The notes under the pieces are model-generated. The model did not search any database and was not told the DNA's origin. It saw nothing but the letters and a program-made list of their open reading frames with translations. DNA of 64,000 bases from contig SVJM01000004.1 of the NCBI GenBank assembly GCA_015068975.1, forward strand, positions 1-64,000, read 5' to 3'. Numbering within the stretch: position 1 is the stretch's first letter; each line of letters starts with the position of its first letter. The translations under genes and the position numbers were made by a program. Shown one piece after another: positions 363-43,725 of this stretch. The stretch is from Oscillospiraceae bacterium (GTDB lineage Bacteria > Bacillota > Clostridia > UMGS1810).

Positions 363-476
363 TTATTTGATAAAGAATAATAGGTATAATATAATTGACA
401 AAACAAAAATATATCCATAATTGTATTACAATTAGATGGTATATTCTGACATTTTGATTATAAGGATGGTGTACAT

Positions 477-995
477 ATGAAAAAAGTATTGTTTAGTGTA
501 ATGATAATATGTATGATATTTACAATGTCAGGCTGCACATGGGGACAAAAACACATATACACACCCGAAGCAACCAATGACAAAGCATATACCACTGTTG
601 GCGTGGGTGAAAAGAAACATCAGGGCGATGGATATACCATTACGATTCCTGAGAAATCTTACCGCTATGAAAAAGACTATGATGATGGTGCTTTAGAAGA
701 AAAATGGGAATATACAAAAAAAGATGATGTTGAAATCACGGTAACCACTTACAAAAACACCGAAGAAATCACCGCAAGAGGTAAATTCTTAAGAGATAAT
801 GATGACTATATCTTTGAGGATATGACAGGGTATTCTATATGCGGAGTGGAGCCTGACGGAGATACCTTGTGGTTTAATCTTCATCAGATCGGGGACACAG
901 TTTATATAGTATCATGGGAGTATCCAAAGAATACAAAAGAGGATTTAATAAATGAGCTTTCAAGTATAGTAAGTACTTTTGAGCTTACAGAATAG
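477..995 (+). CDS. Small secreted lipoprotein, function unknown
   Basis: The 172-residue protein starts with a lipoprotein signal peptide. It has two lysines, a hydrophobic stretch and a lipobox ending SGC at about residue 20, so the mature protein should be lipid-anchored outside the membrane. The rest is hydrophilic and rich in charged and aromatic residues, compatible with a small beta-rich domain. I recognise no family. AAGGATGG precedes the ATG at normal spacing. It is the first gene of a tight four-gene run, 12 bases ahead of the serpin fusion, so it probably works with those surface proteins. Function is not assigned. Confidence 0.85.
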   Translation: MKKVLFSVMIICMIFTMSGCTWGQKHIYTPEATNDKAYTTVGVGEKKHQGDGYTITIPEKSYRYEKDYDDGALEEKWEYTKKDDVEITVTTYKNTEEITARGKFLRDNDDYIFEDMTGYSICGVEPDGDTLWFNLHQIGDTVYIVSWEYPKNTKEDLINELSSIVSTFELTE

Positions 996-1007
996 GAGGT
1001 ACACACA

Positions 1008-3293
1008 ATGAAAAGAGTATTATCCATTATCTTATCACTGGCAATCATTATTTCTTCATTTGCTTTTGTATTTGCAGATGGTGTTGACGGACCGATGCAA
1101 AAAGCTAAAATCAAAGTAGGAGTATCTGCAGATTATATGCCCTTTGAATATTATGATGAAAGTGGCAATATGACAGGCTTCAGTATTGATCTTATGAATT
1201 ATATAGGCGAAAGAATCGGTTATGATGTTGAGTATGTAAATATTCCTTTTGAAGAAATACTTACATCTGTAATAAATGGAGATGTGGATTGCGCCATATC
1301 AACCATTTCTGTTACACAAGAGAGAAAACAGTATGTAGATTATACAAGAGAGTATTTAAAGACAAATAATATCACAGTAATAAATGGTCAGAAGTCTGTG
1401 AAATTTGGTGAGAGCTATGCGGTGGTATTTAAAAAGGGCCTTGGAGAAGCTCCTTACAAGGAATCACCACTTACAGAAAAAGAAGCCTTATATGTGAAGG
1501 TAAATCAGGCAATAACTGACCTTTCTCATGACAGAACTGTTACCAAGCTTATTGAAAAATATGAACTAAACAAACCAATTACCGATGATGGTGAATATGT
1601 GGAGTACAGTGCAGTTATCAGTGGCGGTGACCCGGGTGCTATGACCTCGGCTACGTCAAACCCTGCAAGTGACTGGGCAATAGCCGACATTGAAAAGGCT
1701 AAGGCGTTAAATATCATAAGCGGAAATTACAATTTTCCGGGAAATATTACCCGTGAAGGATTTTGTGAGCTTGTGTATAATTATGTTTCAGAATTTGGTA
1801 AGCTTCCGTCTGATGATGGACATATTGTTTTTGCGGATACAGACAATATGAAAGCCCGTATTCTTAACACAATGGGAATTATAAAGGGTAAATCAGAGAC
1901 ACAATTTGCACCCAATGACTTACTGACCCGTGAAGAAGCGGCAACAATATTAAATCGCCTTATAAATATAGTGCATCCTGATTTAGCAAGTACAGAGTTA
2001 TATTTTGAATTTGCAGACAGTACACAGATTTCTGATTGGGCAATGAGCGCAATTCAGAGAATCTGCAATATTGGTATTATGAAAGGTGTTGGAAACAATA
2101 GTTTTGCACCGAAGGATAACTACACCACAGAGCAGGCTATTGCAACTCTTGTAAGAGTATATGCAAGTTCCGGTATAAGTAAATCTGATGATATGACCTT
2201 TGCAGATAAATTGAAGGCACAGATGCCGACAGGCAGTAACTATATGTTTTCTCCATTGTCAATCAAAATGGCTTTTGCTATGGCGGCAAATGGTGCGGAG
2301 GGAAACACCAAAACAGAGATTTTGAATGCTCTGGATATTGAAAACCTTGACGAATATAATGAGTATGCAAAAAAGCTGATTGAAGGTTATCAGAAAGCAG
2401 ATATATTAAAGCTTGATATTGCAAATGCACTTTGGATTAACGAAACCAACACTACACAAAAGTTTTCTGAAAAATATCAGAATACTCTCAAAAATTTCTA
2501 TGATGCTCAAGTGAACGGATCAACCAGAGACAAAATAGCAGGAGAAATCAACAGTTGGGTAAAAGAAAAGACAAATGATAAAATAGACAGTATTATATCA
2601 GATGAGTTAGCAAAAGATGAGCGTTTTATTATGGCACTATTGAATGCTGTATATTTCAAGGCAGTATGGCAGAATGAGTTTGATGAAGATGCAACAAAGA
2701 AGGACACCTTTACAGACAGAAATGGCGTAGAGAAACAGACTGACTTTATGAACGAAACTGCATACTATGGCTATTACAACGAAAACGGCACCGAAGTTCT
2801 GGCACTTCCGTATAAAAACAGAGTTTATGATGAAACAGCAGGAGAAATGCTTTCTTATGACTTTGATGTTTCCATGTATTTAGTAAGAGGTGACTATAGC
2901 GAAAATATCTTATCAAGTCTTATCGAAAACAACAGTTTTAAAAACAGGAGAATAAAACTAAGTATTCCAAAGTTTGAAAGCAGGTTTGATACATCGCTTA
3001 TTAACCTGATGAATAATCTCGGTGTTGTAGATGCTTTCGAAGAGGAAAAGGCAGATTTTAGGAAGATGTTTGATAAGGGAAATATGTACCTGATGGCAGC
3101 TCTCCACAAAACATATATCAAGGTTGATGAAAAAGGAACAGAAGCTGCTGCTGTAACAGCTTTAGCCGGTGGAACCTCATCTGTACCGCCTGAACCGATA
3201 GTTGTGAAGTTTGATACCCCCTTTACTTATGTTATCCGTGATGATGCAAATGGCGAAATACTCTTTATGGGAGAGTATGCCTTTGTAGAGTAG
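1008..3293 (+). CDS. Chimeric surface protein: truncated solute-binding domain, SLH repeats, serpin
   Basis: This 761-residue exported protein has a signal peptide (about 1-23). Residues 34-185 resemble a polar-amino-acid-type solute-binding protein but keep mainly lobe 1; most of the second lobe is missing. Three S-layer homology repeats follow at about 222-263, 275-322 and 338-388, predicted to bind secondary cell-wall polymer. A full serpin domain runs from about 397 to 761. Its hinge at 708-718 (EKGTEAAAVTA) matches the inhibitory-serpin pattern. Counting from P17 puts P1-P1' at Ser724-Ser725. The distal FDTPF segment is also typical. The likely role is a cell-surface-tethered serine or cysteine protease inhibitor. 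The target protease and the purpose of the half SBP are unknown. GGAGG lies just before the start. Confidence 0.9.
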   Translation: MKRVLSIILSLAIIISSFAFVFADGVDGPMQKAKIKVGVSADYMPFEYYDESGNMTGFSIDLMNYIGERIGYDVEYVNIPFEEILTSVINGDVDCAISTISVTQERKQYVDYTREYLKTNNITVINGQKSVKFGESYAVVFKKGLGEAPYKESPLTEKEALYVKVNQAITDLSHDRTVTKLIEKYELNKPITDDGEYVEYSAVISGGDPGAMTSATSNPASDWAIADIEKAKALNIISGNYNFPGNITREGFCELVYNYVSEFGKLPSDDGHIVFADTDNMKARILNTMGIIKGKSETQFAPNDLLTREEAATILNRLINIVHPDLASTELYFEFADSTQISDWAMSAIQRICNIGIMKGVGNNSFAPKDNYTTEQAIATLVRVYASSGISKSDDMTFADKLKAQMPTGSNYMFSPLSIKMAFAMAANGAEGNTKTEILNALDIENLDEYNEYAKKLIEGYQKADILKLDIANALWINETNTTQKFSEKYQNTLKNFYDAQVNGSTRDKIAGEINSWVKEKTNDKIDSIISDELAKDERFIMALLNAVYFKAVWQNEFDEDATKKDTFTDRNGVEKQTDFMNETAYYGYYNENGTEVLALPYKNRVYDETAGEMLSYDFDVSMYLVRGDYSENILSSLIENNSFKNRRIKLSIPKFESRFDTSLINLMNNLGVVDAFEEEKADFRKMFDKGNMYLMAALHKTYIKVDEKGTEAAAVTALAGGTSSVPPEPIVVKFDTPFTYVIRDDANGEILFMGEYAFVE

Positions 3294-3304
3294 GAGGAAG
3301 GTAA

Positions 3305-4312
3305 ATGAAAAGAAAAATATTTATACTTTTCTTTGTATTGTTGTGGTTGTTTTCTTTCACATCATTTGCAGGATCAATAGATATGGATCTTATGCATGAT
3401 GATGCATCATTAGTATTTATCGGCAAAGTGGATGATTATACAGTCACAGATACTGAGGATGATTATCTGAATACAGAATATTCACTTACAGTTACACCTT
3501 TGAAAAAACTCAAAGGCGATGTTGAAGTTAATAAACCAATTGACTTTGAAAAAGTGGATACATATGATATGAAGCTTACAAAGGATACACAATATTTCTT
3601 CGGATATACAAAGAATGAATTATACATATGGGAGCTTGATTCATATGATAATCTCTTTAACTGGGAAATAGACACATATACAAGAAACAGTATTATCCTT
3701 AAAGAACGACACAATGATACAGTATCACAGGGAGTTCAGGAATATTTAAATGGTGGAATCTTTGAAAAGGCAGAAGAAGAGAGGCTTAGCCTTGGTAAGA
3801 ATAAATCCTTTGCTGATTACATTGGCGGAGATTTGTTCGCTGCAGACAAGATAACATTTACAATATTTAATCAAAAATACATAGTTGACAAAGAAATATT
3901 TGTTAACCTTGCAGATGAAATACAGATAACCAATGTAAAAAACGAAACCATAAAAAGTACAAATTACGATCACGTGCTTTTTGTTCAGTGTGAAAATGAT
4001 GATGGCACAGGAATCCCTGATATGTTTGCCGCTGTAGCACCATATGGTGAGGTGGACAAACTAAGCTGGGGTATGAGCAGGCTGATGGCTTCAGATTATA
4101 CAATGGAAAAAGAGGATATAGAGAAGCTGTATACCTTACTACCGGAAAATGTTCAGAAAAAAATCCCTGAATACCACAAAATGCCCGATGAAGGAGACAA
4201 GCCTGTTACTATAGTAAGCACAACTTTCATAATGGTAGTTGCATTGTTTATCATAGTTATGGTATCATTAATTATAATCATTTCAAAAATGAAACATCAG
4301 GAGGGGAAATAA
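3305..4312 (+). CDS. Membrane-anchored extracellular protein, unknown function
   Basis: The 335-residue product has an N-terminal signal peptide (about 1-22), a long hydrophilic exterior region, and one C-terminal membrane helix at about 305-326 followed by a short basic tail. This predicts a type I topology with most of the protein outside. I recognise no catalytic motif. The gene starts 12 bases after the serpin gene with a GGAGG site and ends one base before the next ATG, so it is part of the same operon. Confidence 0.8.
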   Translation: MKRKIFILFFVLLWLFSFTSFAGSIDMDLMHDDASLVFIGKVDDYTVTDTEDDYLNTEYSLTVTPLKKLKGDVEVNKPIDFEKVDTYDMKLTKDTQYFFGYTKNELYIWELDSYDNLFNWEIDTYTRNSIILKERHNDTVSQGVQEYLNGGIFEKAEEERLSLGKNKSFADYIGGDLFAADKITFTIFNQKYIVDKEIFVNLADEIQITNVKNETIKSTNYDHVLFVQCENDDGTGIPDMFAAVAPYGEVDKLSWGMSRLMASDYTMEKEDIEKLYTLLPENVQKKIPEYHKMPDEGDKPVTIVSTTFIMVVALFIIVMVSLIIIISKMKHQEGK

Positions 4313-4313
4313 T

Positions 4314-5441
4314 ATGAAACGTATATTATCATCAGTTTTAGTTTTATCTTTGATTATTGCCACAATGGTTCCTACATTTGCGGCAAATGGAGACATTGCA
4401 GGGCACATTTATTCCACAGATATACGTGCTTTTATAAACGGAATTGAAGTGGAATCATACAATATCGGTGGCAAGACCGCAGTGGTTATAGAGGATTTGT
4501 TCGGAGAGAGGACACATCTCTGTCAGTATAATGATGATACAAGGACACTTAAGTTTTCAGGACTTGCACCATCTTTTCTTGAAGAAGGGAAGAATAAGGG
4601 TGACTATGCTCCCGGTACAATTATAGGCAATGTGTATGAAACAGATATCAAGACATCTGTATACGATGTGGTTATACCAAGCTATAATATTGGTGGCAAA
4701 ACCGCAGTTGCTATAGAGGATTTAGGATACAACGGAGAGTTTTCTCCCATTGGCGGTAAATTTATATGGGATGATAAAGAGCGTACTATAAGCCTTGAAT
4801 TTCTTTATTCAAACACGGATGGTATTCCAAAGGATAAGAAAACCATCATAACTGCCAATGAAGATATGACAGAGGCTAATGTTACATTTGAAGAAGTGCT
4901 TCATTGTGGAGGTCACGAGGAATTCCGTTTCCCTGAATATGTGACAGACGATACGGATATCGAAACAGTGATGCCTATTAAATCAGGTGATGAAACAATC
5001 GGATATTACTTCAGAAGACCGTCTGATGTATACAAATTTACTGCTTTTACATATTATTATCCTGACAAGGTAAAGGAAGCAGAAAAGACCTTCACACCCT
5101 ATCCCTGGAAAACAAAAGAAAACATTATAACGCATTTCCTTACCAATCACAGTGTTGGTGAGCCAAGAGAAAGATTTGACACAGATGAGTATTCTTTTGT
5201 ATATATATCTGTGGCAGGTACATCATGGACAGCATACAATCTTTTGCAGGTTTATGAAGACGGCACATATATTGACTACAAAGATCAGATTCATATGAAC
5301 AACCGTTCTCCGCAAAACCTTACAGTAGACAAAGAAAATCAGAAGGTTACCTTCAGACATGCCGACAGATATCACAGTGAGTGGTATACCGATTATGAAA
5401 TCGACTTAAAAGAAGGTATTATAAGGGAGCTCATTCAATAA
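4314..5441 (+). CDS. Secreted protein with two related N-terminal repeats, unknown function
   Basis: The 375-residue product has a signal peptide (about 1-23). Two related repeats of roughly 60-75 residues follow. Each carries the motif SYNIGGKTAV(V/A)IEDL, seen near residues 45 and 123, and the second ends in a WDDKERT strand like those of copper-amine-oxidase-N-type stalk domains. The remaining 220 residues show no known signature. An SD of AGGAGGGG precedes the start. It closes the surface operon; the next element is the TPP riboswitch. The repeats may be a wall or matrix interaction module, which is inference. Confidence 0.8.
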   Translation: MKRILSSVLVLSLIIATMVPTFAANGDIAGHIYSTDIRAFINGIEVESYNIGGKTAVVIEDLFGERTHLCQYNDDTRTLKFSGLAPSFLEEGKNKGDYAPGTIIGNVYETDIKTSVYDVVIPSYNIGGKTAVAIEDLGYNGEFSPIGGKFIWDDKERTISLEFLYSNTDGIPKDKKTIITANEDMTEANVTFEEVLHCGGHEEFRFPEYVTDDTDIETVMPIKSGDETIGYYFRRPSDVYKFTAFTYYYPDKVKEAEKTFTPYPWKTKENIITHFLTNHSVGEPRERFDTDEYSFVYISVAGTSWTAYNLLQVYEDGTYIDYKDQIHMNNRSPQNLTVDKENQKVTFRHADRYHSEWYTDYEIDLKEGIIRELIQ

Positions 5442-5620: not shown

Positions 5621-5653
5621 AGGAAGTTACCAAACCGGTAACTTCCTTTTTTG
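5621..5653 (+). terminator. Riboswitch expression-platform terminator
   Basis: Arms 5621-5631 and 5637-5647 form an 11-bp perfect stem with a 5-base loop and a run of seven Ts. It lies between the aptamer and thiM, so it is expected to form when TPP is bound. Confidence 0.93.
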
Positions 5654-35337: not shown

Positions 35338-35585
35338 GCTAAATTACAGAAAAACACTGGTTTAACTTGAAATAAAAGGCAATATTTTTGTAATATGTAG
35401 CGATATTTGAATATTTTTTGTTTTATTGTGTTGTATTGTAAATATATAACAAAAATAAACAACAAAAAATCATTTGTGCATATCAATATTTGAAAAGTAT
35501 TCGATATATTTGATAATATTTGCAAACTTTTGTTCAATTATTTAATATATACTTTAACTACAATATACATAAAAGGAGGAAGATT

Positions 35586-37886
35586 ATGAAAAAAGTAATT
35601 TGCTTATTTTTGACAATGATAATGATTGCTTCATCATTTGTATTCACAGCACTTGCAGATGATGGCATAAAAATCCTTATCGACGGTGAGAAAAAGACCT
35701 TTGATTCTATGCCGGTTATTGTTAATTCAAGAACACTTGTACCTATGCGTGGTATATTTGAAGCATTTCGTACAGTGATTGAATGGGATGATGCTTCAAA
35801 GACAGTATCTGCAAAAGCAAATGGGTCGGTTATTACTCTTAAAATCGGAGATGAAAATGCTGTAGTTAATGGCAAAACAATTCAGCTTGACTGTCCTGCT
35901 CAGATTATAAACGACCGAACAATGGTTCCTGTAAGATTTGTTGCAGAAACATTGGGGTGCAAGGTTGATTGGGATGACGGTACAAGAACAGTAATCATCA
36001 ATAAGGGGGATTACGATTTTGTTCGTCCCGGTATGAAGGCACTTGTAAGTGACGTGCATAGAAATGTTCCTACAGAATTTACAAAGTCAAATGATATGAA
36101 TGATATTCTTCATTTTGAAAAGCCTCCAATCGAAGAACAGGAAAAGGTATACAATGAGCTTAAGCCAAAGGGTGAAGTGGTTTGTGACAATGATGAGTTC
36201 CTTCAGGAATTCAGCGTAAAAGGTGCAGGACATGGTTCTTATGAAGTAGTTAATGTGGAAGGTCAATCCTTTGACAGGGCATTGAGAATTACAAGTAAAG
36301 CGGCTTTAAGCAATCCTGCTGATTTTATTGTAAAATCCACCGCTACTCCCGAAAAGGTTCCGGGCGAGGGAGTAAAAAAAGAGGATGCACTTCTTCTTGC
36401 ATTCCGTATGAGATGTGTTGATGGGGGTGACGAAACAGGAACAGCTAAAGTTCTTGTTCAGGTAGAGGAGCTTAAAACAGGAAAATTCAGAAAGGCAGTA
36501 TTTGATGTATGTTATGCAGGTAAGGATTGGGAAATGGTTTACTTCCCGTTTAAGCCGCAGGTAGACGCAACCTCAATAGGTATCAGAGCAGGTTACCATG
36601 CACAGACAGTAGAAATCGGAGGATTTGAGATCATCAACTTTGGTCCCGATTATGACAAGGGCTCACTTCCATCCACAGCAAACAACTTCCCCGAATTAAA
36701 GCCGGGAGCTAAGTGGAGAACAGAGGCTTTTGACAGAATAGAAAAGAACAGAAAAGGTGACTTCACAGTTGTAGTCAAGGACAAAAGCGGCAACGTTATC
36801 CCTGATGCAGATGTAGAGCTTGATATGTTTGAGCACGAGTTTCAGTTCGGTACAGCTATTAATGGTAATGTAAAAGCCAACGAGGAATATCATAAGGCTA
36901 TGAACAAAGAGTTCAACACTATTGTTCTTGAGCACAATATGAAATGGCATCCTTATGAAGAGAAGCCTTCGAGAGCTCAGAATCAGGTTGAGCTCGCAAT
37001 CAAGCATGGTATCAAATACGTAAGAGGCCATGCTATGATCTGGGAAAAGCCACAGGGCGGCAACAAGTCAGCCTGGATTACACCCAAAGAGCTTTTTGAA
37101 GAGCCAAATATTTCAAACAAAGAGCTTATAATGGAAAGATCAAAAAAACTTATCCACACAATGGCAAAGGACGAACACTTCTACAACGTGGTAACTGATT
37201 GGGACGTTGTAAATGAATGTATGGGTTATGATGCCTTCAGAAAGGTTCACGGAAACAGCCTTCTTAAATACTGGTTTGACGAAGCAAGAAAAGCTGTAAA
37301 CCCTGAAGCAGAGCTTTATTATAATGAATCCACCGGTATATGGCAGCCTGAATTCTGGGATATGCTTGATGTATTTGAAAAAGAAAATGTTGACTATGAC
37401 GGTATTGGCATCCAGTCGCATTATGATTGGTTTTTTAAGACACCGGTTGAAATGGTTGAATTCTATGATAAAATTGTAGAAAGGACAGGAAAGAGACTTA
37501 AAGCAACAGAATTTTCCTGTTCAATAAATGACCCGGTATTCCAGGCAAACTTTGTAAGAGATGCTATGATTGCCGTCTTTGCTGAAGAAAATATGGATGG
37601 CTTCCTTATGTGGGGGTTCTGGAATGGCTCACTTTATGCGGAGTTTTCACCAATGTACAATTATGACTGGACACTCAACGATGCAGGAAGAGTTTATGAA
37701 GATCTTGTTTACAATAAGTGGTGGACAAGAGATGCTAAGGCGAAAACAGACAGCGAAGGTAAAGCAACCATCAGAGGCTTCTACGGAGATTATGATGTAA
37801 AAGTGACTTGTAACGGTGCGGAAAAGAACCTTATGGCATCATTCCATAAAAATTACGAAAACGTACTTGAAATAATAGTAGAATAA
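35586..37886 (+). CDS. Secreted GH10 xylanase-like protein with stalk domain and CBM-like region
   Basis: The ATG at 35586 follows AAAGGAGG and gives 766 residues; the longer frame is rejected. Domains in order: signal peptide (about 1-24); copper-amine-oxidase-N-type stalk domain (about 26-142), with SRTLVPMRGIFEA and DRTMVPVRFVAETLG; a jelly-roll CBM-like region (about 190-345); an Ig-like segment; the GH10 barrel (about 410-690); and a C-terminal GFYGDYDVKV module. The acid/base is Glu544 in VVNECM and the nucleophile Glu642 in KATEFS. It likely cleaves beta-1,4-xylan outside the cell. There is no SLH or dockerin. Confidence 0.92.
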   Translation: MKKVICLFLTMIMIASSFVFTALADDGIKILIDGEKKTFDSMPVIVNSRTLVPMRGIFEAFRTVIEWDDASKTVSAKANGSVITLKIGDENAVVNGKTIQLDCPAQIINDRTMVPVRFVAETLGCKVDWDDGTRTVIINKGDYDFVRPGMKALVSDVHRNVPTEFTKSNDMNDILHFEKPPIEEQEKVYNELKPKGEVVCDNDEFLQEFSVKGAGHGSYEVVNVEGQSFDRALRITSKAALSNPADFIVKSTATPEKVPGEGVKKEDALLLAFRMRCVDGGDETGTAKVLVQVEELKTGKFRKAVFDVCYAGKDWEMVYFPFKPQVDATSIGIRAGYHAQTVEIGGFEIINFGPDYDKGSLPSTANNFPELKPGAKWRTEAFDRIEKNRKGDFTVVVKDKSGNVIPDADVELDMFEHEFQFGTAINGNVKANEEYHKAMNKEFNTIVLEHNMKWHPYEEKPSRAQNQVELAIKHGIKYVRGHAMIWEKPQGGNKSAWITPKELFEEPNISNKELIMERSKKLIHTMAKDEHFYNVVTDWDVVNECMGYDAFRKVHGNSLLKYWFDEARKAVNPEAELYYNESTGIWQPEFWDMLDVFEKENVDYDGIGIQSHYDWFFKTPVEMVEFYDKIVERTGKRLKATEFSCSINDPVFQANFVRDAMIAVFAEENMDGFLMWGFWNGSLYAEFSPMYNYDWTLNDAGRVYEDLVYNKWWTRDAKAKTDSEGKATIRGFYGDYDVKVTCNGAEKNLMASFHKNYENVLEIIVE

Positions 37887-40824: not shown

Positions 40825-43725
40825 ATGAAAAAGTTTTTATGTATGATTATGGCGATTTCCCTTATCATTTCATCTTTTGGTATGATAAGTGTTTTTGCTG
40901 ATAGTGACATCAAGGTTCAGATCAACGGCAAAGCGTGTGATTTCGATACAAAACCTATGATTATCAACTCAAGAACTATGGTGCCTATGCGTGCAATATT
41001 TGAAGCACTGGGAGCCAAAATCACATGGGTTGACAGAACAAAAACTGTAGTAGGGGTCAGAAATCAGAAGATTGTAAAGCTTACAATCAATTCACCTAAG
41101 GCATACATTGACGGGGCAGAGGTTACACTTGATTCTGCACCTGTAATTGTTGACAGCCGTACATATGTGCCTGTAAGATTTGTGTCAGAAGCCCTTGGCG
41201 AAAAGGTGGACTGGGATGGAGATACAAAGACAGTAATCATTGATTCTGATTACTTAAAGGCAGTTGCAGTAGACAAGGGGCTTGACAATCTTGTATCCAC
41301 ATATCACAGACCAATACCAAAGGAAGATGAATTCAAGGCAACAAGCGACTGGAATGACCTTATTTTCTATGATTCAGATGCCAAAAGTCCTGATGAGATT
41401 TTCGCATCACTTCCTGAAGGTAAGGTAATATTTGACAAATCAAAGTTTATGCCTTATTCCAAAATCCAAAAGGGCAATGACAATACCACAGTAACCACAA
41501 GAGAAGACCCTGAGCTTGGTACAGTTCTGGTTCTTGAAACAAAGGAAGTTCCTGAGGATACAGCAGGACTTATCGTCAAGTGGTATGATGCAATAAAGGG
41601 TATGTATTCAACTGATGATGTAATGCTTCTTAAGTTTAAAGCTCGTACAGTATCAGGCGGTCAGGAAGGCATCGGAAGAATTATGATGCAGATAGAAGAG
41701 CAGGTATCCACAAAGTTTTATAAGGCTCTTTTTGAATCATATGCTCCCTCTCCTGAGTGGACAACCTTCTATACACCTATCCGTCCTATAGAAAATGGGG
41801 ACAACTTCGGTATAAGATTCGGATATTTTAAACAGAAGATAGAAGTGGCAGACCTTGAGATGATAGTATATTCAGGAGATATCAAGCTTGAGGAGCTTCC
41901 TGTGTCAAAGGGTGCTATGTATCAGACAGTGGCACAAAAGGATGCTAAATGGAGAAATGATGCTATAGCAAAAATCCCTCAGGTGCGTTCAGGAGATTTT
42001 ACAGTAAAAGTTGTTGACAAGGATGGAAATCCCGTACCTGATGCAAATATCAATGTGGAACAGTATGAAACAGAATTTCGCTTCGGTTCAGCACTTAACG
42101 GCAATGTGGAAACTAAGGAAAAATACAGACTCAATGCAGGTAAGTACTTTAATACCGCAGTAGCAGAAAGTGCTTCTAAATGGGATTATCCAAAGGCAGT
42201 TGAAGGAAGCATCAATCAGCTTAAGATGTTCCGTGATGCAGGTATCAAATACTTAAGAGGTCATGTGCTTGTTGTAGGTACATTGTCATTTGTTCATCCA
42301 ACAGTTGCAGATGCTTATAAGGTTGCTTTCAATCAGGATACTCCTGATGATATGCAGAAGCTTATTCAGGACCATATATATGAATACACAGATGCACATC
42401 TTGGACTTGTGGAAGACTGGGATGTAGAAAATGAACACATTACTCATACTACATTTGCAGATAAATTCGGATACGACCTTATGAAGCCATGGTATCAGTG
42501 GACAAGAGAAGGGGATCCGGGAGTTAAGCTTTGCTACAATGACTATAAGGTTGACGACAGCTTTACAAATATTGTTCAGAAGTTCCACGATCTTGGATAT
42601 GATATAGATGCAATCGGTATGCAGTCACACTATGACACACCATTTGCATCCCCTGAGGATATTGCAAAGCTATATGAATTTATAGGAAATCTCGGCTATA
42701 GAGTAAAGCTTACAGAATACTCCTGCTCACTTACAGAGGATGATCAGGTTTATCAGGCAAACTACACAAGAGACACACTCCTTCTTGCACTTGCAAGTGA
42801 ATATGTGGATGACTTCATTATGTGGGGTTATTACGACGGACATGGCATCAAAAAGAATGCTCCGATGTTTGATATAAACTGGAACAAAAAGCTTGCAGGA
42901 GATCAGCTTATAGATATTATCTACAACAAGATGTGGACACATTCAACTGATCTTAAATCAGATGCATCAGGTATTGCTACATTTAAAGGCTACTATGGAG
43001 ATTATGATGTGAAGGTAAGTGCAAAGGGCATTACAAAGACTATTATGGTACCATTCCATAAGGGATTTGAAAATGTGGTTACTGTAGTTATGGATGAAGA
43101 TAATTCTTTGGCTTATGATATGGTAACACCAGATGCACCGGCAGTTGATTCAAAGCCTGATGAAAAAAAGGAAGACACAAAACTTCCTGCAGAAGAGAAA
43201 CCCTCCAAGCCTGTTGAATCAGTAACAGGTGTATCTCTTGAAGGCGGAAATGTGGTAATCTCTCCTGATGATATGAAGAATATTACCAAGACAGAGAGAG
43301 CAGGTAAGATAGGATTCGCCGATGGTGTTCTTACAGTTGACTGTACAGAAGCTACTACCAATCAGCAGGATCTTGCATTAAGCTTTAAAAAGACTCTTGA
43401 TGGACTTGTTACAGACGGAGATACATGTGTAATGGCGTTTAAAGTAAGACTTCTCTCAGGTGGTAATAGCGATGTAGGTAAGATCAAAATGCAGGTGCAG
43501 GGCGATGCAAGTGTTAATCACAGAAAGGTAGTATTTGCAGAAGTACCATTTGGCAAGGAATGGACAGAAGTGGTGATACCATTCGGTGCAACATCAGTGT
43601 CTACAATGGTAGGTATCAGATGCTCATTCGGTGTACAGAAATTTGAAATAAAGGATTTTCAGATTGTAAACTTCGGTACATCAAAAGCACTTACGGATTT
43701 CCCTGCTAGTGTAAAAGCAAAATAG
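40825..43725 (+). CDS. Large secreted GH10 xylanase-like protein with two CBM-like regions
   Basis: The 966-residue protein is a paralogue of the GH10 protein at 35586. Order: signal peptide (about 1-25); stalk domain (about 26-145) with SRTMVPMRAIFEALG and SRTYVPVRFVSEALG; a CBM-like jelly roll (about 195-350); an Ig-like segment; the GH10 barrel (about 405-680); a GYYGDYDVKV module; a Pro/Lys/Glu-rich linker (about 765-800); and an extra C-terminal CBM-like domain (about 805-960). The acid/base is Glu537 in VENEH and the nucleophile Glu631 in KLTEYS. AAAGGAG precedes the ATG. It likely degrades xylan outside the cell. Confidence 0.92.
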   Translation: MKKFLCMIMAISLIISSFGMISVFADSDIKVQINGKACDFDTKPMIINSRTMVPMRAIFEALGAKITWVDRTKTVVGVRNQKIVKLTINSPKAYIDGAEVTLDSAPVIVDSRTYVPVRFVSEALGEKVDWDGDTKTVIIDSDYLKAVAVDKGLDNLVSTYHRPIPKEDEFKATSDWNDLIFYDSDAKSPDEIFASLPEGKVIFDKSKFMPYSKIQKGNDNTTVTTREDPELGTVLVLETKEVPEDTAGLIVKWYDAIKGMYSTDDVMLLKFKARTVSGGQEGIGRIMMQIEEQVSTKFYKALFESYAPSPEWTTFYTPIRPIENGDNFGIRFGYFKQKIEVADLEMIVYSGDIKLEELPVSKGAMYQTVAQKDAKWRNDAIAKIPQVRSGDFTVKVVDKDGNPVPDANINVEQYETEFRFGSALNGNVETKEKYRLNAGKYFNTAVAESASKWDYPKAVEGSINQLKMFRDAGIKYLRGHVLVVGTLSFVHPTVADAYKVAFNQDTPDDMQKLIQDHIYEYTDAHLGLVEDWDVENEHITHTTFADKFGYDLMKPWYQWTREGDPGVKLCYNDYKVDDSFTNIVQKFHDLGYDIDAIGMQSHYDTPFASPEDIAKLYEFIGNLGYRVKLTEYSCSLTEDDQVYQANYTRDTLLLALASEYVDDFIMWGYYDGHGIKKNAPMFDINWNKKLAGDQLIDIIYNKMWTHSTDLKSDASGIATFKGYYGDYDVKVSAKGITKTIMVPFHKGFENVVTVVMDEDNSLAYDMVTPDAPAVDSKPDEKKEDTKLPAEEKPSKPVESVTGVSLEGGNVVISPDDMKNITKTERAGKIGFADGVLTVDCTEATTNQQDLALSFKKTLDGLVTDGDTCVMAFKVRLLSGGNSDVGKIKMQVQGDASVNHRKVVFAEVPFGKEWTEVVIPFGATSVSTMVGIRCSFGVQKFEIKDFQIVNFGTSKALTDFPASVKAK

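Follow-up and report, generated by a model that had tools for sequence, protein, structure and literature searches.

The closest described systems include serpins of Clostridia. Clotm-serpins 1 and 2 of Clostridium thermocellum (Kang et al. 2006, as presented in the review PMC6718151) are inhibitory-type proteins that carry a dockerin as attachment module, and in the account of that review the cellulosomal serpin inhibits subtilisin, its proposed target. The siropins of gut Clostridia inhibit neutrophil elastase and proteinase 3 (PMC5127057); a term search of the text of that paper returned no mention of a surface anchor or an S-layer, and no head is known for these proteins. Similar in layout is WP_320690919.1 of the named gut species Monoglobus pectinilyticus, which is plasmid-borne, is annotated merely as 'serpin family protein' and joins an SLH-type N-terminus to a serpin. 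Among the open-licence literature we found no paper on a serpin joined to an SLH anchor. What bacterial serpins do is largely unsettled, and a wall-anchored serpin places the inhibitor on the producer's own surface.

We analysed a window of 64,000 nucleotides from an Oscillospiraceae bacterium (contig SVJM01000004.1), in which one gene on the forward strand (1008..3293) encodes a protein of 761 aa. The reading frame starts with ATG, has an AGGAGG ribosome-binding-site-like stretch shortly 5' and contains no internal stops. It encodes a signal peptide (residues 1-24, 1008..1079) with an MKR start, a hydrophobic core and an AFA-like end, all kept in relatives, followed by lobe I only of an SBP_bac_3 solute-binding protein (SBP; residues 35-185, 1110..1562, Pfam E 1.9e-32), a low-confidence linker (1575..1661), three SLH repeats (residues 219-390, 1662..2177, Pfam SLH E 4.6e-14) and a complete serpin (residues 402-757, 2211..3278, Pfam E 7.1e-82, PDB serpins with E down to 1.5e-42). 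A single exported protein with these three domains, all called by Pfam in one uninterrupted frame, is what the original prediction had described. Its worry that separate genes had been fused by an assembly artefact can be dismissed, since the same order, with the frame unbroken, recurs in two further genomes, making three: an Oscillospiraceae MAG (G004, SVJK01000013.1; 772 aa, 80% identity) and a sheep colon MAG (G359, JAFVPB010000070.1; 773 aa, about 52% identity), where Pfam likewise finds the three domains.

Like the Clotm-serpins, this protein is an exported clostridial serpin of inhibitory type with an attachment module and subtilisin as a candidate target, and both occur in fibre degraders: the window carries plant-fibre-degrader genes, namely two GH10 genes with stalk domains and one rhamnosidase. 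The attachment differs, as the SLH repeats would serve directly in place of a dockerin, for which a Pfam scan of the fusion protein gave no match, and the SBP lobe forms an additional head. With the siropins it shares the serpin fold, the inhibitory hinge and an origin in gut Clostridia, the head again setting it apart. The Monoglobus protein has a similar reactive loop (GTEAAAVTSIGMAGSALPPEP), but its SLH region is diverged, it has no SBP head and its serpin is 36% identical.

We consider the best explanation, at a probability of about 0.72, to be that the protein is a surface-held, irreversible protease trap whose head is an exchangeable accessory. After export, the SLH trimer would bind pyruvylated secondary cell-wall polymer on the wall and the serpin would expose a reactive loop rich in Gly, Ala, Ser and Thr. 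A serine protease of subtilisin or elastase type, be it the cell's own, a neighbour's or a pancreatic enzyme of the host, would cut this loop near Ser724 and be caught at the surface as an inactive covalent acyl complex. The single-lobe head in front of the SLH-serpin core would most likely act as a docking module or as a low-affinity amino-acid- or peptide-binding module. The cell-surface protease-inhibitor device proposed in the original prediction is thus the best reading of the signal peptide, the Sap-like SLH fold, CsaB and the intact hinge, while inhibition itself is predicted from these features; protection of the S-layer or of extracellular enzymes by the serpin, also proposed there, we can only infer.

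The serpin spans positions 10-367 of the 370 in the PF00079 profile, and the inhibitory hinge EKGTEAAAVTA lies at residues 708-718 (3129..3161), so that the full serpin with an inhibitory-type hinge stands as first described. Within it, GTEAAAV (710-716) corresponds to P15-P9, with Thr at P14 and small residues at P12-P9, and GTEAAA is invariant across 13 SLH-serpin relatives. The hinge-to-P1 spacing is 17 residues with no indel up to S724, and a collinear alignment with alpha1-antitrypsin-type serpins returns the P1 residue that had been proposed, giving a predicted P1-P1' pair Ser724-Ser725 (3177..3182). As siropins are cleaved at other positions, P3-P2 and P6-P5 (PMC5127057), Ser724 should be taken as a predicted P1.

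Serpins without inhibitory activity exist, and a storage, chaperone-like or scaffold role is conceivable in spite of the fold. We nevertheless regard such a role as very improbable here, given that the P15-P9 hinge (GTEAAAV) does not vary across the 13 relatives, at 42-80% identity to the present protein.

As to the protease class, the reactive loops are rich in Gly, Ala and Met, and most relatives have Ser or Thr at the predicted P1, which fits subtilisin- or elastase-type enzymes. Subtilases were found in 8 of 10 genomes checked, and the host genome of our gene (G000) has an exported one on contig C27. No subtilase exceeded the threshold in G074 or G002, genomes with an SLH-serpin or a stalk-serpin, and the producer's own subtilase would thus not be the sole target. 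Host pancreatic elastase is also a plausible target given the hindgut origin of relatives; those whose records state a source were recovered from the hindgut of deer and sheep.

The anchor is modelled as an SLH trimer that matches the SLH domain of Bacillus anthracis Sap (3PYW, 6BT4) with TM 0.78-0.81 by target. Pfam scores two SLH stretches on their own, and it is the match of the model of residues 1-395 to the three-repeat Sap fold that bears out the count of three repeats made from the sequence. Sap and the present protein share this fold; here the third repeat is degenerate (YTTEQA, lacking the TRE-type Arg of the canonical motif) and the cargo is a serpin. CsaB, the pyruvyl-transferase for the secondary cell-wall polymer, is encoded in G000 (TIGR03609, E 8.4e-82) and csaB was found in 5 of 6 relatives tested; none was seen in the SLH-serpin carrier G008, whose assembly consists of 250 contigs. 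The SLH fold together with CsaB in the genome supports anchoring to the wall, which we infer on this basis.

The head had been described as a truncated, half SBP. Half it is, as lobe I is complete and lobe II absent, but it does not result from a random truncation. When full-length SBPs of the same lineage are aligned with it, the lobe I segments at about residues 35-120 and 137-185 prove to be directly joined, with about 85 residues of lobe II missing between them; a C-terminally truncated SBP is rejected for the same reason, both lobe I segments being there and lobe II excised. In the AlphaFold model of residues 1-395 (mean pLDDT 75), most of the lobe reaches 80-90, while the joint at 110-160 and the linker at 190-216 are low, the latter below 50. 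The best PDB matches by Foldseek are 6XKS (LAO) and 6Y16, 6GPC and 7A99 (TmArgBP), with TM 0.74-0.79 by target. Pocket residues were mapped onto TmArgBP by alignment: Phe38 and Phe76 have the SADY Tyr and the NIPF Phe as their counterparts, both positions being aromatic throughout the three heads, each of which also retains the carboxylate-type Arg in VTQER.

The head thus has the lobe I fold and pocket residues, and without lobe II it does not have the two lobes that enclose a ligand via a hinge. It is related to working two-lobe SBP_bac_3 receptors but lies outside that group, and cannot serve as a classical two-lobed transport receptor. Engineered TmArgBP D1 (6GPC, 6Y16, 7A99) and LAO domain A (6XKS) likewise consist of lobe I without lobe II; these are laboratory dissections, whereas the present head is natural and joined to SLH repeats and a serpin. 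It is the natural counterpart of such engineered single lobes, any function being suggested by homology to the engineered domain. To our knowledge it is a natural example of a single-lobe binding protein, a form so far known through dissection, and so offers a natural test of the usefulness of half a Venus flytrap. In 398 genomes of the phylum, none of the further hits with E <= 1e-20 fell in a lobe-I-only or SLH-serpin frame; their frames measure 246-310 aa, the ordinary size of a full-length SBP.

Isolated TmArgBP D1 binds arginine with a Kd of about 3 uM (F57W variant; PMC7589609), and the head shares its lobe architecture, pocket aromatics and Arg. This favours a role for the head as a functional one-lobe sensor of ligands, linking the binding of a nutrient or peptide to serpin presentation or surface assembly. 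The ligand residues that lobe II would contribute are absent, though, and the linker from the head to the SLH region is low-confidence, and we hold a sensor to be quite unlikely.

Among relatives, heads are gained, lost and exchanged. In G010 the signal peptide and roughly the first 35 SBP residues remain and lead into the SLH region, the rest being lost in frame. Its joint lies at GATATTGA / GACATTGA, and in G004 both of these sequences border the part that G010 lost, the pattern that a deletion between short repeats would leave; the head may have been removed in this way. G074, G008 and others have an intact SLH-serpin core without an SBP head, and G001 and G002 have stalk-type N-termini. 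In G005 the head is a subtilisin prodomain (PF22148, above the cut-off), for which no source was found within the G005 genome; G006 is without the prodomain stretch, and its contig is 97-98% identical to that of G005 on either side. A subtilisin prodomain is a type of domain that inhibits subtilisins, and its presence with a serpin within one SLH protein hints at the likely protease class.

Such gains and losses, between near-identical strains in the case of G005 and G006 and with the core left intact in the headless relatives and in G010, would suit an SBP lobe that is a passive spacer or the leftover of a chance fusion, with the SLH repeats and the serpin alone being of consequence. Three genomes, however, maintain a full lobe I in an open frame, with the pocket aromatics and the Arg kept in 3 of 3 heads, and lobe II was removed cleanly, not by erosion of the gene. 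Moreover, nonsynonymous differences in the head stay well under synonymous ones (pN 0.23 against pS 0.76 for G000-G004; 0.34 against 0.71 for G000-G359), by which the head is under purifying constraint. We therefore consider a spacer or leftover doubtful and retain the surface-held trap with an exchangeable accessory head.

The modules also have different histories. Between G000 and G004 the synonymous difference is 0.745 in head and linker and 0.485 in the SLH-serpin part (permutation p 4e-4). An abrupt shift of identity at about residue 215-220 places the linker (1575..1661) near the inferred recombination joint. At the second joint, G010 compared with G000, G004 and G074 is 84-87% identical in the SLH region and 46-49% in the serpin, with pS of 0.47-0.58 and 0.79-0.82, respectively (p <= 8e-4). 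The trees conflict accordingly: the SLH alignment rejects a grouping of G010 with G359 (AU p 0.005), while the serpin alignment groups them (99/97) and rejects G010 with G000, G004 and G074 (AU p 6e-6). These AU clades were picked after the identities had been seen, which makes the p-values somewhat optimistic; three kinds of evidence agree in indicating recombination at both the head/SLH and the SLH/serpin joint.

The core is 88% identical between G000 and G004 and 78% between G000 and G074, compared to 77% and 67% for RpoB, yet G004 and G005, with 96% identity in RpoB, share just 49% in the core; DNA similarity between G000 and G004 ends about 20 bases or less from the gene ends. On these comparisons, the gene has likely moved between lineages. 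Because its modules differ in synonymous divergence and give trees that conflict, we regard it as a recombining cassette in which head, anchor and serpin are swapped between species. With serpin and head both replaceable on a single anchor, changing proteases may be the selective force, which would be the signature of an arms race. A further extension, which we judge unlikely, would be a recombining surface anti-protease cassette of gut Clostridia with an SLH anchor and swappable serpins and heads, where the head, be it a single-lobe receptor for amino acids or a subtilisin prodomain, would aim or gate the serpin, for example by retaining the target protease or as a sensor of freed amino acids or peptides.

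The arrangement had been put forward as unfamiliar, and this holds in part. The SBP-headed order is rare, being present in three genomes, but the SLH-serpin combination is common in the class: at least 17 of 391 genomes sampled from it, in seven families (f1, f11, f17, f18, f44, f51 and f66), have SLH and serpin in one match, the count being of single matches across both. Most of these proteins measure 560-620 aa and have SLH directly after the signal peptide. Another 398 genomes, sampled from the phylum, gave no match at 1e-60 apart from our own genome. Most genomes compared are fragmented MAGs. The unusual part is the single-lobe SBP head together with the cassette-like swapping of heads, anchors and serpins.

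Four closely packed ORFs lie on the forward strand here (477-5441), the second being the fusion gene. The first, a small lipoprotein-like ORF (477..995), ends 12 bases before the fusion gene and has a homologue (61% identity) directly upstream of the SLH-serpin of G074. The third (3305..4312) encodes an exported protein with a C-terminal membrane anchor or helix, and its homologues adjoin the SLH-serpins of G005 and G006 (L023 4019-5059; L024 3959-4999). The N-terminal barrel of this protein gave weak NTR-type matches (PCOLCE1, the C3/C4 C-terminal domain, Ancylostoma ES-2 and TIMP-2), but we rejected its assignment as a TIMP/NTR-type inhibitor, the fold matches having E of 0.09 or above (range to 1.4) and probability up to 0.95 on a model with mean pLDDT 57.5. 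The fourth (4314..5441) is an exported stalk-type protein whose N-terminus is related to the serpin heads of G001 and G002. A possible operon may start at a sigma-70-type promoter-like site before the first ORF (367..395, 11/12 consensus match), a kind of site whose number is near chance, and end at a strong terminator-like hairpin after the fourth (5621..5647, by pattern match).

Several other genes were noted in passing. Serpin relatives in family f51 (L046, L049, L050) lack SLH and some have lipobox-like N-termini (LLTAACG in L050), which suggests that lipoprotein anchoring may take the place of SLH. G006 has two more serpin pieces at contig ends (L024 1-372; L028 3465-3938), and its lineage may have several SLH-serpin-type genes. 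Adjoining the SLH-serpin of G005, L023 106-1869 encodes an SLH protein with PBP_like_2 (phosphate-type binding), i.e. a wall-anchored binding protein. Finally, G000 has a second serpin (L027 6806-9316; G000:C17 at about 98.8-101.3 kb) with a copper-amine-oxidase-N stalk instead of SLH, a PdaC-like segment (below the cut-off) and a long Lys/Glu linker, and the same type of stalk is found in the two GH10 proteins of the window (35520-37886 and 40825-43725).
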